Shown here: one piece after another, positions 3,524 through 8,138 of the stretch
Layout of the letters: the number at the start of each line of letters is the position of its first letter
How positions within the stretch are numbered: position 1 is the stretch's first letter
Assembly: GCA_023247595.1 (NCBI GenBank)
Contig: JAHFGF010000046.1
Coordinates: 1,356 to 9,961 of the forward strand
DNA length: 8,606 bases
From: Candidatus Omnitrophota bacterium
Lineage (GTDB): Bacteria; Omnitrophota; Koll11; Zapsychrales; Fredricksoniimonadaceae
Reading direction: 5' to 3'
Notes under the pieces: generated by a model
Told to the model about the DNA's origin: nothing
What the model saw: the letters and a program-made list of their open reading frames with translations, nothing else
Database searches by the model: none
Made by a program: the position numbers and the translations under genes

Positions 3524-3646
3524 TTAATCCGTTCGTTTTTTATAGGACATTTCAGCCAATTCGTCGATCCACTTTAAAAGATACCCGCCGAAAAGCGCGC
3601 TCTGCCCGTTCATGAATTCCGGAAGGATGAGTTTATGATGTTTCAT
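3524..3646 (-). pseudogene. Truncated second copy of the hotdog thioesterase gene (N-terminal 40 codons)
   Basis: From an ATG at 3646 the frame gives 40 residues. 22 of the first 29 match the N-terminus of the thioesterase at 845-1207, including the shared LPEFMN and LFGGYLLKWIDE segments. Similarity stops abruptly after the conserved WIDE, and the frame ends with seven unrelated residues and TAA. The catalytic helix end and all later strands are missing, so it cannot fold as a hotdog enzyme. The frame is open upstream to about 3721, but the ATG at 3646 is favoured by homology and by GAAGGGA about 9 nt before it. It lies directly ahead of the EEP gene. It may be a plain relic, or a short leader whose translation now feeds ribosomes to EEP. 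Confidence 0.72.
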
Positions 3647-3686
3647 TCGTTTTAGTTCCCTTCGTAATAATCTATTTACCCGGTCT

Positions 3687-4076: not shown

Positions 4077-4874
4077 TTATGCTTTCTTGCGCCGTGTTGC
4101 CAATAATCCGATAAGCCCTGAACCAAAAAGGCCCAACGTTGCCGGCTCCGGAACAACTGGCTGTTGATCATCGAGATGCAATCCCACCATGAGTCCAGTG
4201 TACGACCCTTCAATCTCATCAAAGAAAATACTGGGCGAAGAAACCCTTGCCTGCAGAACGCCTATCACAGCATCCGCATGACCGACCGACGGATGTTCCG
4301 CGGCATTGCCGTCAACACCATAAGCCAGTTGACTGAACAGTCCTGGCGTTTTGTTACCGGCACTTAAATCAACGTTGAATTTCATAGGCAATCCCGAGGT
4401 GTCATCGCCCTCGTGAGGAAAATCATTAGTACTTAATTTGCCGGTGTGCGTGAGCGTTCCGTCCCACTTGATGTGATCATTGGGGTCAACAATAATAGCT
4501 GACGACGGATCAAACGTGAGTTTGGAATCAAGCGTCCAGTAATTGCCGAAGACATCAAGATCAAATTCCTGAAACGTGTCCACTTTGACGTTGCTACCTT
4601 CGGCATTAAAACCAAACGCCAACTGCGTCGGGGTCTCTCCCCACATTGAACGTTGCGGAAGCGCGTTGGGCGAAGGGGAACCAAACAGATTTTGGTAGGC
4701 TGTCTGCAGATTAAATTCGGAGGTTTCCTGCCCGTTGGACGGGTTAGTTCCCGTGGATGTTCCTTCAAAAGCTCCATTGGGGTCGTTGGCGATGACAATG
4801 GTGATTGCCTCGGATGGTCGGGACATCATAACAAACATAAACAAAAAACAGACAATCAGGATCGGTATTCTCAT
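4077..4874 (-). CDS. PEP-CTERM sorting-domain protein (exosortase substrate)
   Basis: This is a 265-residue secreted protein. The ATG at 4874 is chosen because GGAAAGGA lies just upstream and a signal peptide begins at once: MRIPI, a hydrophobic core (residues 4-17), and cleavage near SEA (21-23). The frame is open nine codons further up, but that stretch (to 4901) contains the ribosome site. The C-terminus is a textbook PEP-CTERM signal: VPEPATLGLFGSGLIGLL (241-258) is the VPEP motif plus membrane helix, followed by the basic tail ATRRKKA. Exosortase (EpsH/XrtA-type) cleaves such proteins at the PEP motif during export to the cell surface or extracellular matrix. The body (about 25-238) is acidic, Gly/Asn/Asp/Thr-rich, probably beta-structured, and not recognised. 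No exosortase or exopolysaccharide gene lies in this window, which is normal for PEP-CTERM substrates. The FMN reductase frame ends 62 nt upstream, so co-transcription is possible. Confidence 0.9.
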   Translation of the reverse strand: MRIPILIVCFLFMFVMMSRPSEAITIVIANDPNGAFEGTSTGTNPSNGQETSEFNLQTAYQNLFGSPSPNALPQRSMWGETPTQLAFGFNAEGSNVKVDTFQEFDLDVFGNYWTLDSKLTFDPSSAIIVDPNDHIKWDGTLTHTGKLSTNDFPHEGDDTSGLPMKFNVDLSAGNKTPGLFSQLAYGVDGNAAEHPSVGHADAVIGVLQARVSSPSIFFDEIEGSYTGLMVGLHLDDQQPVVPEPATLGLFGSGLIGLLATRRKKA

Positions 4875-4936
4875 TTTTTCCTTTCCGAAACAGAGACACA
4901 ATAGCCGTTGTTATATATTAAACTTCAAACTCCAGC

Positions 4937-6795: not shown

Positions 6796-6899
6796 CAGAT
6801 TCTCAAATTAAAAGGGTAACGGACGGGCACGCAAAGGCTTGCGGTTCTGAAGGTTGGAGGAAAGACAAAAAAAATTTAAAATAACTTCAAAAAACATCG

Positions 6900-6952
6900 G
6901 ACCGTTTCTAAATATCGCTATTAATGTCAAATATTTATGACAGAACTGTCCC
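6900..6952 (+). repeat. 53-nt end module C (left end of the RAYT element)
   Basis: GACCGTTTCT, 31 nt, then CAGAACTGTCCC, identical in both cores to modules A and D. The AT-rich middle contains a small possible hairpin, TGTCA facing TGACA (6925-6942), which is not conserved in the other modules. Confidence 0.8.
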
Positions 6953-6991
6953 CAAAACAACCATAATCATTATTTGTTCTAAGTTTCCTCT

Positions 6992-7498
6992 TTACTGATA
7001 TCTCTTCCCCCGATGCATCAACCAGCCGCCGATTTTACGGCCGGAAGGGTCGTGGTGGGTCCAATGGATAACACCGCCTTTGTTGTTCCACACATACTCG
7101 CCGTAGAACGCCACGGTATCGCCAAGCTTAAGATTTCCAACTCTCCCAGCCAGGTCAATGTTATGGGCAATTAATACGGTGTGGTCATTAAACAAACGAA
7201 GCAAAAACCGTTGATGCCGGCCGCCGTCTATGTCATCTTTTAAGATTTTAATCACCACACCTTGCGACTGCACCCAGAAATCAGATTTGACCGTTTGATA
7301 GGCTTCTTTAATTCTGCTGTCGGTATCTTTGACATCGATTTTTTGATCAACGTTTAAATTTTGATACGTTATTTTTTTCGACTGGTCAGACCAAGCAGAC
7401 GGGTTAAAAACAGATAAAAACAAAACCAAATTAATCCATACAATAATCCGCGTATAAAAAGAATCTCTAATCATACAAAGCCCCAAACTGTTTCTCAT
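6992..7498 (-). CDS. DUF3465 family exported protein (cargo of the RAYT element)
   Basis: The C-terminal two thirds match the DUF3465 pattern: VVIKILKDD (residues 81-89), HQRFLLRL (95-102), TVLIAHNIDLAGRVG (107-121), LGDTVAFYGEYVWNNKGGV (125-143), IHWTHHDPSG (144-153) and GGWLMHRGKRYQ at the C-terminus. The family is small, uncharacterised and predicted to be OB-like; the conserved His/Trp/Asp cluster suggests metal or ligand binding. A signal peptide-like hydrophobic stretch (about 17-31) ends near SAWS, so it is probably periplasmic. I favour the ATG at 7498 (168 residues). A TTG at 7510 and an ATG at 7474 are alternatives, and no start has a strong ribosome site. The gene begins 16 bp after the transposase stop, so it is likely translated from the transposase mRNA. 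It lies wholly inside the element's terminal repeats. Confidence 0.85.
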   Translation of the reverse strand: MRNSLGLCMIRDSFYTRIIVWINLVLFLSVFNPSAWSDQSKKITYQNLNVDQKIDVKDTDSRIKEAYQTVKSDFWVQSQGVVIKILKDDIDGGRHQRFLLRLFNDHTVLIAHNIDLAGRVGNLKLGDTVAFYGEYVWNNKGGVIHWTHHDPSGRKIGGWLMHRGKRYQ

Positions 7499-7514
7499 TT
7501 TACAAATCAATCAC

Positions 7515-8012
7515 TTAAAAAATTGCGAATCGCTCTACGGTCAAAAGTCCATCGACTTTGTCATTAGCCTTCCCCATATAATATCGAGCCGAACTAAACG
7601 GATACTCTTCAGAATATCCCGCCATTTTGGAACGCACCGGATTTTGATGGATGTATTTAATGCATTCCAAAATATAACGTTCCCTAGAGATACAAAAACT
7701 TTTAAACCTTCCCTGCCAAACATACCCGACATAATCATGAGTGCGGCGAAACCAACCGCTGTAAGAAAGAAGTATTGACTGCATCACTCGTGAAATATTG
7801 TGCGGATCTTGAACCTGTATAATTAAATGCGCGTGGTTATCCATCAGGACAAACGCATGCAATACGAATTTAAATTTGGCACGGTAACGTTCAATGGTTT
7901 GAAGGAATTTTTCTTTGGCTGAATTATCTTGAAGAACAAAATGACGATTGTTGCCACGAACAATCACATGATACACAGCATTTGAATAGTACAACCTTTT
8001 ATTTCTTGCCAT
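7515..8012 (-). CDS. REP-associated tyrosine transposase (RAYT, Y1/HUH family)
   Basis: This is a 165-residue Y1 transposase. VYHVIVRGNNR (residues 13-23) is the N-terminal strand of the fold. LMDNHAHLIIQ (56-66) carries the HUH metal site (H60, H62). WQGRFKS (99-105) and ECIKYIHQNPVRS (116-128) hold the family signature with the candidate catalytic tyrosine Y120, followed by EYPFSSARYYMG (136-147). All key residues are present. Family enzymes cut and rejoin single-stranded DNA at hairpins and are linked to the spread of REP/REPIN sequences. The protein lacks the C-terminal extension of many RAYTs. The ATG at 8012 directly follows a perfect 10-bp inverted repeat made from the element's inner end motif, and the Shine-Dalgarno-like GGGGA lies inside the stem. 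Confidence 0.9.
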   Translation of the reverse strand: MARNKRLYYSNAVYHVIVRGNNRHFVLQDNSAKEKFLQTIERYRAKFKFVLHAFVLMDNHAHLIIQVQDPHNISRVMQSILLSYSGWFRRTHDYVGYVWQGRFKSFCISRERYILECIKYIHQNPVRSKMAGYSEEYPFSSARYYMGKANDKVDGLLTVERFAIF

Positions 8013-8047
8013 AACTGTCCCCTTTCATGCGAACCTGGGGGACAGTT
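8013..8047 (-). promoter_or_regulatory. Inverted repeat covering the transposase ribosome binding site
   Basis: In the minus-strand mRNA AACTGTCCCC (8047-8038) and GGGGACAGTT (8022-8013) pair perfectly over 10 bp around a 15-nt loop, and the start codon follows without a gap. The only Shine-Dalgarno candidate, AAAGGGGA 6-7 nt before the ATG, lies mostly in the 3' arm. The fold would hide it and reduce translation; binding of the transposase to this copy of its own end motif would be a second possible control. Confidence 0.55.
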
Positions 8048-8091
8048 CTGTTGTAAACATATTGGTTTGATAATACTTTGAAGAAACGGTC
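8039..8091 (-). repeat. 53-nt end module D (right end of the RAYT element, upstream of the transposase)
   Basis: Read inward on the minus strand: GACCGTTTCT (8091-8082), 31 nt, then CAGAACTGTCCC (8050-8039). Its inner motif doubles as the 5' arm of the hairpin at the transposase start. GTAG precedes the outer motif. Confidence 0.8.
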
Positions 8092-8138
8092 TACTACATT
8101 TTCAGATCTCACGAGGCAGGATGCCGCGCGGTATTTGC

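Follow-up and report, generated by a model that had tools for sequence, protein, structure and literature searches.

A RAYT transposase gene of Candidatus Omnitrophota lies between two inverted copies of a 53-nt arm in which two short motifs are held at a fixed distance, and we consider it likely that the gene and the arms belong to a RAYT/REPIN ('REPtron' or 'TIRtron') system of this phylum in which the 53-nt arm goes with one RAYT clade. The window (the whole 8,606-nt stretch of DNA that was analysed) has motif A (GACCGTTTCT), a gap of exactly 31 nt and motif B (CAGAACTGTCCC) at 6900–6952 on the forward strand (A 6900–6909, spacer 6910–6940, B 6941–6952; matrix score 64), on the downstream side of the RAYT gene and of a DUF3465 gene, and the same module inverted at 8039–8091 on the reverse strand (matrix score 42), on the upstream side of the RAYT gene. 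Both motifs are exact at both ends, as the initial annotation had claimed in describing two-part ends with strict spacing, and the unit measures 1192 nt from arm to arm. The RAYT gene (7515–8012, reverse strand) encodes a 165-aa transposase of the Y1/HUH type (Pfam Y1_Tnp, 2.8e-16) with the motifs NHAH (NH.H), WQGRF and YIHQNP. The DUF3465 gene (6992–7510, reverse strand; Pfam DUF3465, 1.3e-46; in-frame ATG starts at 7495 and 7474) has RAYT on one side and the downstream arm on the other.

The window also contains a gene-free inverted doublet of 129 nt at 710–838 that the initial annotation missed (arms 710–762 forward and 786–838 reverse, core 23 nt, ssDNA fold z −2.4), so the repeat that flanks the RAYT gene is dispersed here as it is in the other genomes. 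In total GACCGTTTCT is found four times exactly and five times at ≤1 mismatch (chance mean 0.49; at least five in 0/200 shuffles), and CAGAACTGTCCC five times at ≤2 mismatches (chance mean 0.36; at least five in 0/200 shuffles). In the RAYT leader (8008–8050, reverse strand) motif B of the upstream arm faces a B-like copy (GGGGACAGTTATG, one mismatch) that contains the RAYT start codon; the predicted RNA fold has −19.3 kcal/mol and z −3.0, with 2/200 shuffles equally good, and this suggests that the fold over the start codon might limit translation of RAYT itself. The window had no match in Rfam at gathering scores, and a known RNA family was therefore set aside. A virus origin was considered and set aside, the exact paired motif having 0 matches in viral_contigs, as was a plasmid origin, there being no near match of the window in the plasmid collection. 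Elsewhere in the window a 112-nt repeat (3555–3666 vs 1116–1227, 77% identity) partially duplicates the start of a 4HBT thioesterase gene (845–1207), and 4077–4901 encodes a PEP-CTERM protein.

The general plan of the arm is A (GACCGTTTCT), a 31-nt spacer and B (YAGAASTGTCCC), 53 nt in total. A single pass through the species-genome collection in which the gap could vary (A, 16–46 nt, AGAACTGTCCC) gave 47 matches in 37 stretches, 44 of them exactly 53 nt long; 43 of these 44 are in genomes labelled Omnitrophota and one (L021) is labelled only 'bacterium', while two of the three of other length, L003 and L022, carry labels of other bacteria and the third, L025, is from an Omnitrophica genome. 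When gaps from 5 to 79 nt were counted, 54 arms had a gap of 31 nt vs 11 at all other gaps together. The spacer is weakly conserved rather than unconserved: over 53 distinct arms columns 36–37 are TT in 53/53 and column 30 is A in 49/53, and columns 14–16, 34 and 39–41 each exceed 1 bit, which rules out a spacer of random DNA and corrects the initial annotation, according to which the spacer had no sequence conservation. A 53-column weight matrix made from the arms never exceeded −14.2 at 448,654 control positions, for which the same loci were read backwards or complemented in their original order; the window's arms score 42–64, all four being among the training sequences. The distance from A to B is 42 bp centre to centre, or four turns of B-DNA.

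When 11 genomes were searched with the gap fixed and ≤2 mismatches allowed, 10 of them yielded 85 matches in total (27 in the richest; reversed pattern 0/11), and at ≤1 mismatch the module is present in 17/285 Omnitrophota genomes (reversed control 0/285), so that the many copies that the initial annotation expected of a motif-pair search are there. The compared genomes for which titles were shown are metagenome-assembled and several are thinly covered. The matrix was run over 60 sources, namely the window and 59 of 107 loci (L003, L022 and L025, where the match is not at gap 31, and loci overlapping re-fetched stretches were omitted; L004 and L018, which look like two assembled versions of one locus, were both counted), and it found 90 arms with scores of 23–71. 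These form 62 loci, 28 inverted pairs and 34 single arms, and 33 of the 34 singles have no partner, although three (L037, L023 and L014) have only 206–580 nt of flank for the partner search. Because 34 of 62 loci are unpaired, the arms are dispersed modules rather than transposon ends alone, and the initial annotation's view that they mark the ends of one unit and nothing else does not hold. It had named unpaired motifs and random spacing as the observations that would speak against it: the first is common, whereas the second was not seen.

The pairs are mostly doublets of 109–129 nt (10 of 109 nt, 3 of 110, 1 of 117 and 7 of 123–129, with 1 of 187; 22 are under 300 nt), and the longer ones are five of 643–677 nt that enclose RAYT, plus the unit of the window; RAYT-bearing units have 560–678 nt, apart from the window's unit of 1192 nt. 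Within a pair the arms are of unlike type: column 39 is T+C in 21 of the 28 pairs, T+T in 5, A+T in 2 and C+C in none. Short doublets lie between co-directional genes in 17/22 cases and singles in 23/34, as judged with a crude frame caller and no baseline. At six loci of one genome, G001 (L069, L070, L071, L072, L073 and L082), tandem duplications of 9–19 nt abut the arm, some including motif A; perhaps they are the footprint of cutting and rejoining at the arm terminus.

In the RAYT protein residues H60, H62, Y120, N124 and P125 are invariant in six relatives. The NCBIfam model REP_Tyr_transpos gives the window protein 79.3 bits, just below its cut-off of 80, and a profile of six RAYTs flanked by 53-nt arms (arm-53 RAYTs) hits E. 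coli TnpA_REP (4er8) at 3.5e-9 as its sole PDB hit. This profile matched 220/285 Omnitrophota genomes at E≤1e-20, and ten matches stand apart (E<1e-65; the next at 5e-54), one per genome in ten genomes, in agreement with the statement of the initial annotation that RAYTs are in general single-copy. The 53-nt arm is on both sides of all ten of these close RAYTs vs 0/20 of the next more distant loci, which gave one weak single-arm hit and no pair; the claimed link between arm and RAYT is thus borne out. As the ranking profile was built from six arm-53 RAYTs this split is not fully independent of the arms. A tree of 33 RAYTs places the 13 that have 53-nt arms on one side of a branch with support 100/99, and all 13 units have arms on both sides. 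A single conserved RAYT locus was ruled out, since a flanking frame is common to just 2/78 pairs of arm-53 RAYT loci (L109/L115 on both sides, L111/L112 partly).

The more distant RAYTs have arms of their own. At the 18 of 20 loci with a recognised frame, inverted blocks around the gene exceeded all 40 shuffles in 17, the exception being L129 (the other two gave no frame). The same generic two-block test did not rise above shuffles for L111 and L112, two of the ten arm-53 loci, yet the matrix detects their arms. Many of the distant loci have two blocks with different letters and a shorter spacing, for example GGGACGGTTCT-N13-AAGYGTCCC, and this pattern, with any gap of 4–34 nt allowed, was found in 23/285 genomes (control 0/285). 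Among the 91 places listed 73 sister arms are of 33 nt and 13 of 34 nt (gaps of 13–14 nt), with 5 others, and five RAYTs lie between two such arms (G159:C60, G131:C56, G224:C4, G119:C2 and G115:C9). Sister A and B are self-complementary with one mismatch (GGGACG/YGTCCC, then TT/AA). The 53-nt arm resembles the sister plan, its loop being longer by about 20 nt and its A–B pairing weaker, and it may be a long-loop derivative of it. The flanks of the RAYTs at L135 and L133 carry not a single arm but an array of several tandem blocks (GAAACACTTTCC / GGGAAAGTGTCCC).

Orthologous sites without the element, which the initial annotation had called for, were found for single arms, for doublets, for RAYT units and for the window's own unit. 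The joined flanks of six paired elements of G001 were compared with the genomes of its genus (six besides G001), and all six loci, the RAYT unit included, are element-free in at least one congener. At the site of the RAYT unit G274 has flanks 75 and 78% identical with 15 nt between them; because G001 and G132 share the RAYT locus, this absence may reflect a loss rather than an insertion in G001. One further genome, G011, has an element (L103) at the same site as L070. Four of eight single arms queried could be aligned, and three of these (L078, L069 and L077) have element-free sites, L082 being unreadable. The L078 arm is absent from G274, G292 and G290 (flanks 84, 81 and 78% identical). In these genomes the genes on either side seem to overlap at ATGA, and the extra DNA at L078 is little beyond 53 nt and a CAA tag. 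Other DNA stands at the site of the missing arm in L184 (for L078) and in L191 and L186 (for L069).

The two genes that neighbour the window's unit have counterparts in G310 (48% identity over 355 aa and 70% over 88 aa) with 194 nt between them where the window has 1328 nt (6810–8137), and both unit genes and both arms are missing together. This G310 site (L173) holds a different hairpin-like repeat, AGGGAAACTTTC...GAGAAAGTGTCCCT, which resembles the arms of other Omnitrophota RAYTs. Most insertion points could not be fixed to the base, and no target duplication was seen at the element sites compared.

The bases just outside motif A are lineage-specific, with TTG at 16/21 arms in G001 (background 2.1%), TA at 14/17 in G002 (6.6%) and AA at 22/27 in G003 (12%), so that by genome the tag is TTG, TA or TAA. 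A GTAG tag was not found (the arms have no GT[AG]G at a hairpin foot), nor do the window's four arms have a tag in common. At two filled loci with orthologous arms (four arm pairs) the motifs differ at 9/88 positions and the spacers at 51/124 (p 5e-7), the motifs thus changing less than the spacers; in the first-arm pair of L070/L103 the difference in the spacer is so great that one arm may have taken the place of another. As ssDNA the doublets form strong folds (4/4 tested, z −2.4 to −10.7), with A pairing with A' and B with B'. Single arms fold no better than shuffles (89 arms, mean −2.44 vs −2.61 kcal/mol), and neither do the two arms of the window's RAYT unit (2/2). A long hairpin running through the spacers was rejected, spacer identity being 14.2/31 within elements and 15.2/31 between them. 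Nor was there covariation for a hairpin in which A pairs with B inside the arm; such a hairpin is unsupported by either approach and we retain it just as a presumed ancestral state. Because single arms do not fold and A and B do not covary, recognition of the arm as a classical REP hairpin is not supported.

The RAYT, a relative of E. coli TnpA_REP among the HUH nucleases of single strands, would most likely act on the arms in ssDNA. It would nick the strand at the lineage-specific tag just outside A and could move arms, doublets or its own unit, in trans; the spacer would most likely be kept mainly for its length, and A and B probably correspond to the two sides of the short imperfect hairpin of the sister families, if the arm descends from them. 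Against such a RAYT/REPIN system count the unfolded single arms without A–B covariation, the lack of GTAG, the frequency of singles, nearly all without a partner, the window arms without a shared tag, the insertion points that mostly could not be fixed to the base and the chance that the RAYT locus was lost from G274. A variant in which the 53-nt arm moves singly rather than as a doublet, one arm at a time being inserted or removed with its tag while the Y1 enzyme of the clade measures the distance between two contacts (about four turns, two more than in the sisters of 33–34 nt), we regard as unlikely.

The elements might otherwise be an insertion sequence that has two-part terminal inverted repeats and brings about its own movement, in duplex or single-stranded form, with the doublets as MITEs and DUF3465 as a passenger. 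It would account for the same arms in RAYT units and gene-free doublets, for the presence/absence polymorphism of both and for RAYT loci that so rarely share a flanking frame, but one close RAYT per genome in ten genomes, single arms that are as common as pairs and polymorphic on their own, and the lack of target duplications speak against it; we find it quite improbable. The arm might instead be bound as dsDNA, at A and B and over the four turns between them, by a RAYT complex or another protein, the singles being mainly regulatory sites between operon genes. Fixed spacing with weak spacer letters, a single arm that does not fold, the position of most singles between co-directional genes and the equal upkeep of A and B in singles and doublet arms (0.32 vs 0.38 mismatches, in sets both found by near-exact motifs) are all consistent with such a duplex ruler. 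However, RAYT relatives act on single strands (PMC8266576), the singles between co-directional genes occur in either orientation relative to these genes (12 and 11), the sister arms are self-complementary, and the four-turn phase argument, which rests on very few arm lengths, is only suggestive; the probability of a duplex ruler is in our estimate very low.

A different question concerns the window alone, where the arms may come from separate repeats that happen to bracket the RAYT gene and a resident DUF3465 gene, with no composite unit; to this we give a little less than even weight. In 10 of the 11 units extracted (13 examined) the position of the RAYT stop codon relative to the downstream arm ranges from 6 nt before it to 44 nt within it; in the window, the one exception, stop and arm are 562 nt apart. 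The arm types are reversed relative to the five other RAYT units compared, and the RAYT start sits in the second, B-like motif. Outside the window, a single 53-nt arm (score 24) stands 17 nt after a DUF3465 stop in G195 (L179, 1842–1894), and in G309 DUF3465 lies 2.4 kb from the ortholog of the window's neighbouring gene without arms. The joint absence of both genes and both arms from G310 is what speaks for a composite unit, in which the DUF3465 gene, placed between RAYT and the downstream arm, would possibly be cargo. The DUF3465 family is present in 5/285 Omnitrophota genomes. As the usual cargo it was rejected, since of five further loci four are without an arm and one has a single arm.

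These results extend RAYT/repeat systems to Omnitrophota, a phylum for which the literature searched (most subscription journals lying outside its coverage) holds no description of such a RAYT/repeat family, and what is new is a 53-nt arm within a known, RAYT/REPIN-type system. The arms of 33–34 nt and of 53 nt, with their different tags, form a natural series for comparing enzyme and repeat across the clades; a spacer of variable letters and fixed length makes the choice between a folded strand and a measured distance directly testable, and likewise the movement of single arms, and the element-free sites are a starting point for finding events in populations.

The initial annotation knew of no described family with such ends, but TIRtrons, named in 2013 (Di Nocera et al., PMC3733652), are RAYT-like genes between long inverted repeats that share GGGGWSAS, and they are the closest system that we found in print. 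There as here repeats flank a RAYT-like gene, and GGGGACAG, present in both window arms if the flanking base is counted, fits GGGGWSAS; TIRtron repeats are also described as overlapping gene ends and as dispersed singly and as dimers, some self-complementary (PMC3733652). The text passages of that paper on which our comparison is based describe no fixed-spacing two-motif 53-nt arm, and TIRYTs are mostly of subclass 2.1 with a C-terminal domain according to the sections of PMC6006769 on these classes, whereas the window RAYT has 165 aa and other motifs. Subclass 2.6 of TnpA_REP is given there as mostly from Bacteroidetes with a median of 179 aa (Quentin et al., 2018, PMC6006769) and resembles the window protein in the motifs NH.H / WQ / YIH[QN]NP, in its shortness and in atypical flanking structures copied elsewhere in the genome, a placement that comes from comparing three motifs by eye with the published table. 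From the IS200/IS605 family, with which it has in common the Y1/HUH transposase superfamily and a short tag outside the end, the system differs, in its ends as the initial annotation claimed and in other respects: the ends are inverted, there is no stable hairpin within the arm and one close RAYT is present per genome, so that neither subterminal hairpins nor a recent multi-copy element was found, and the NCBIfam IS200 model gives the RAYT 31 bits vs a cut-off of 55. REPINs, among which doublets are said to prevail (Bertels and Rainey, 2011, PMC3116915), differ in that the 53-nt arm has no hairpin of its own, no GTAG and tens of copies at most in the genomes examined, and in that singles, decayed remnants in the REPIN pattern, are common and undecayed here. 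The likeness to REPINs as they are described in PMC3116915 lies in inverted doublets that fold, in a RAYT flanked by the same repeat, and in a stretch of lower conservation, apparently of some importance in its length, between two conserved regions.
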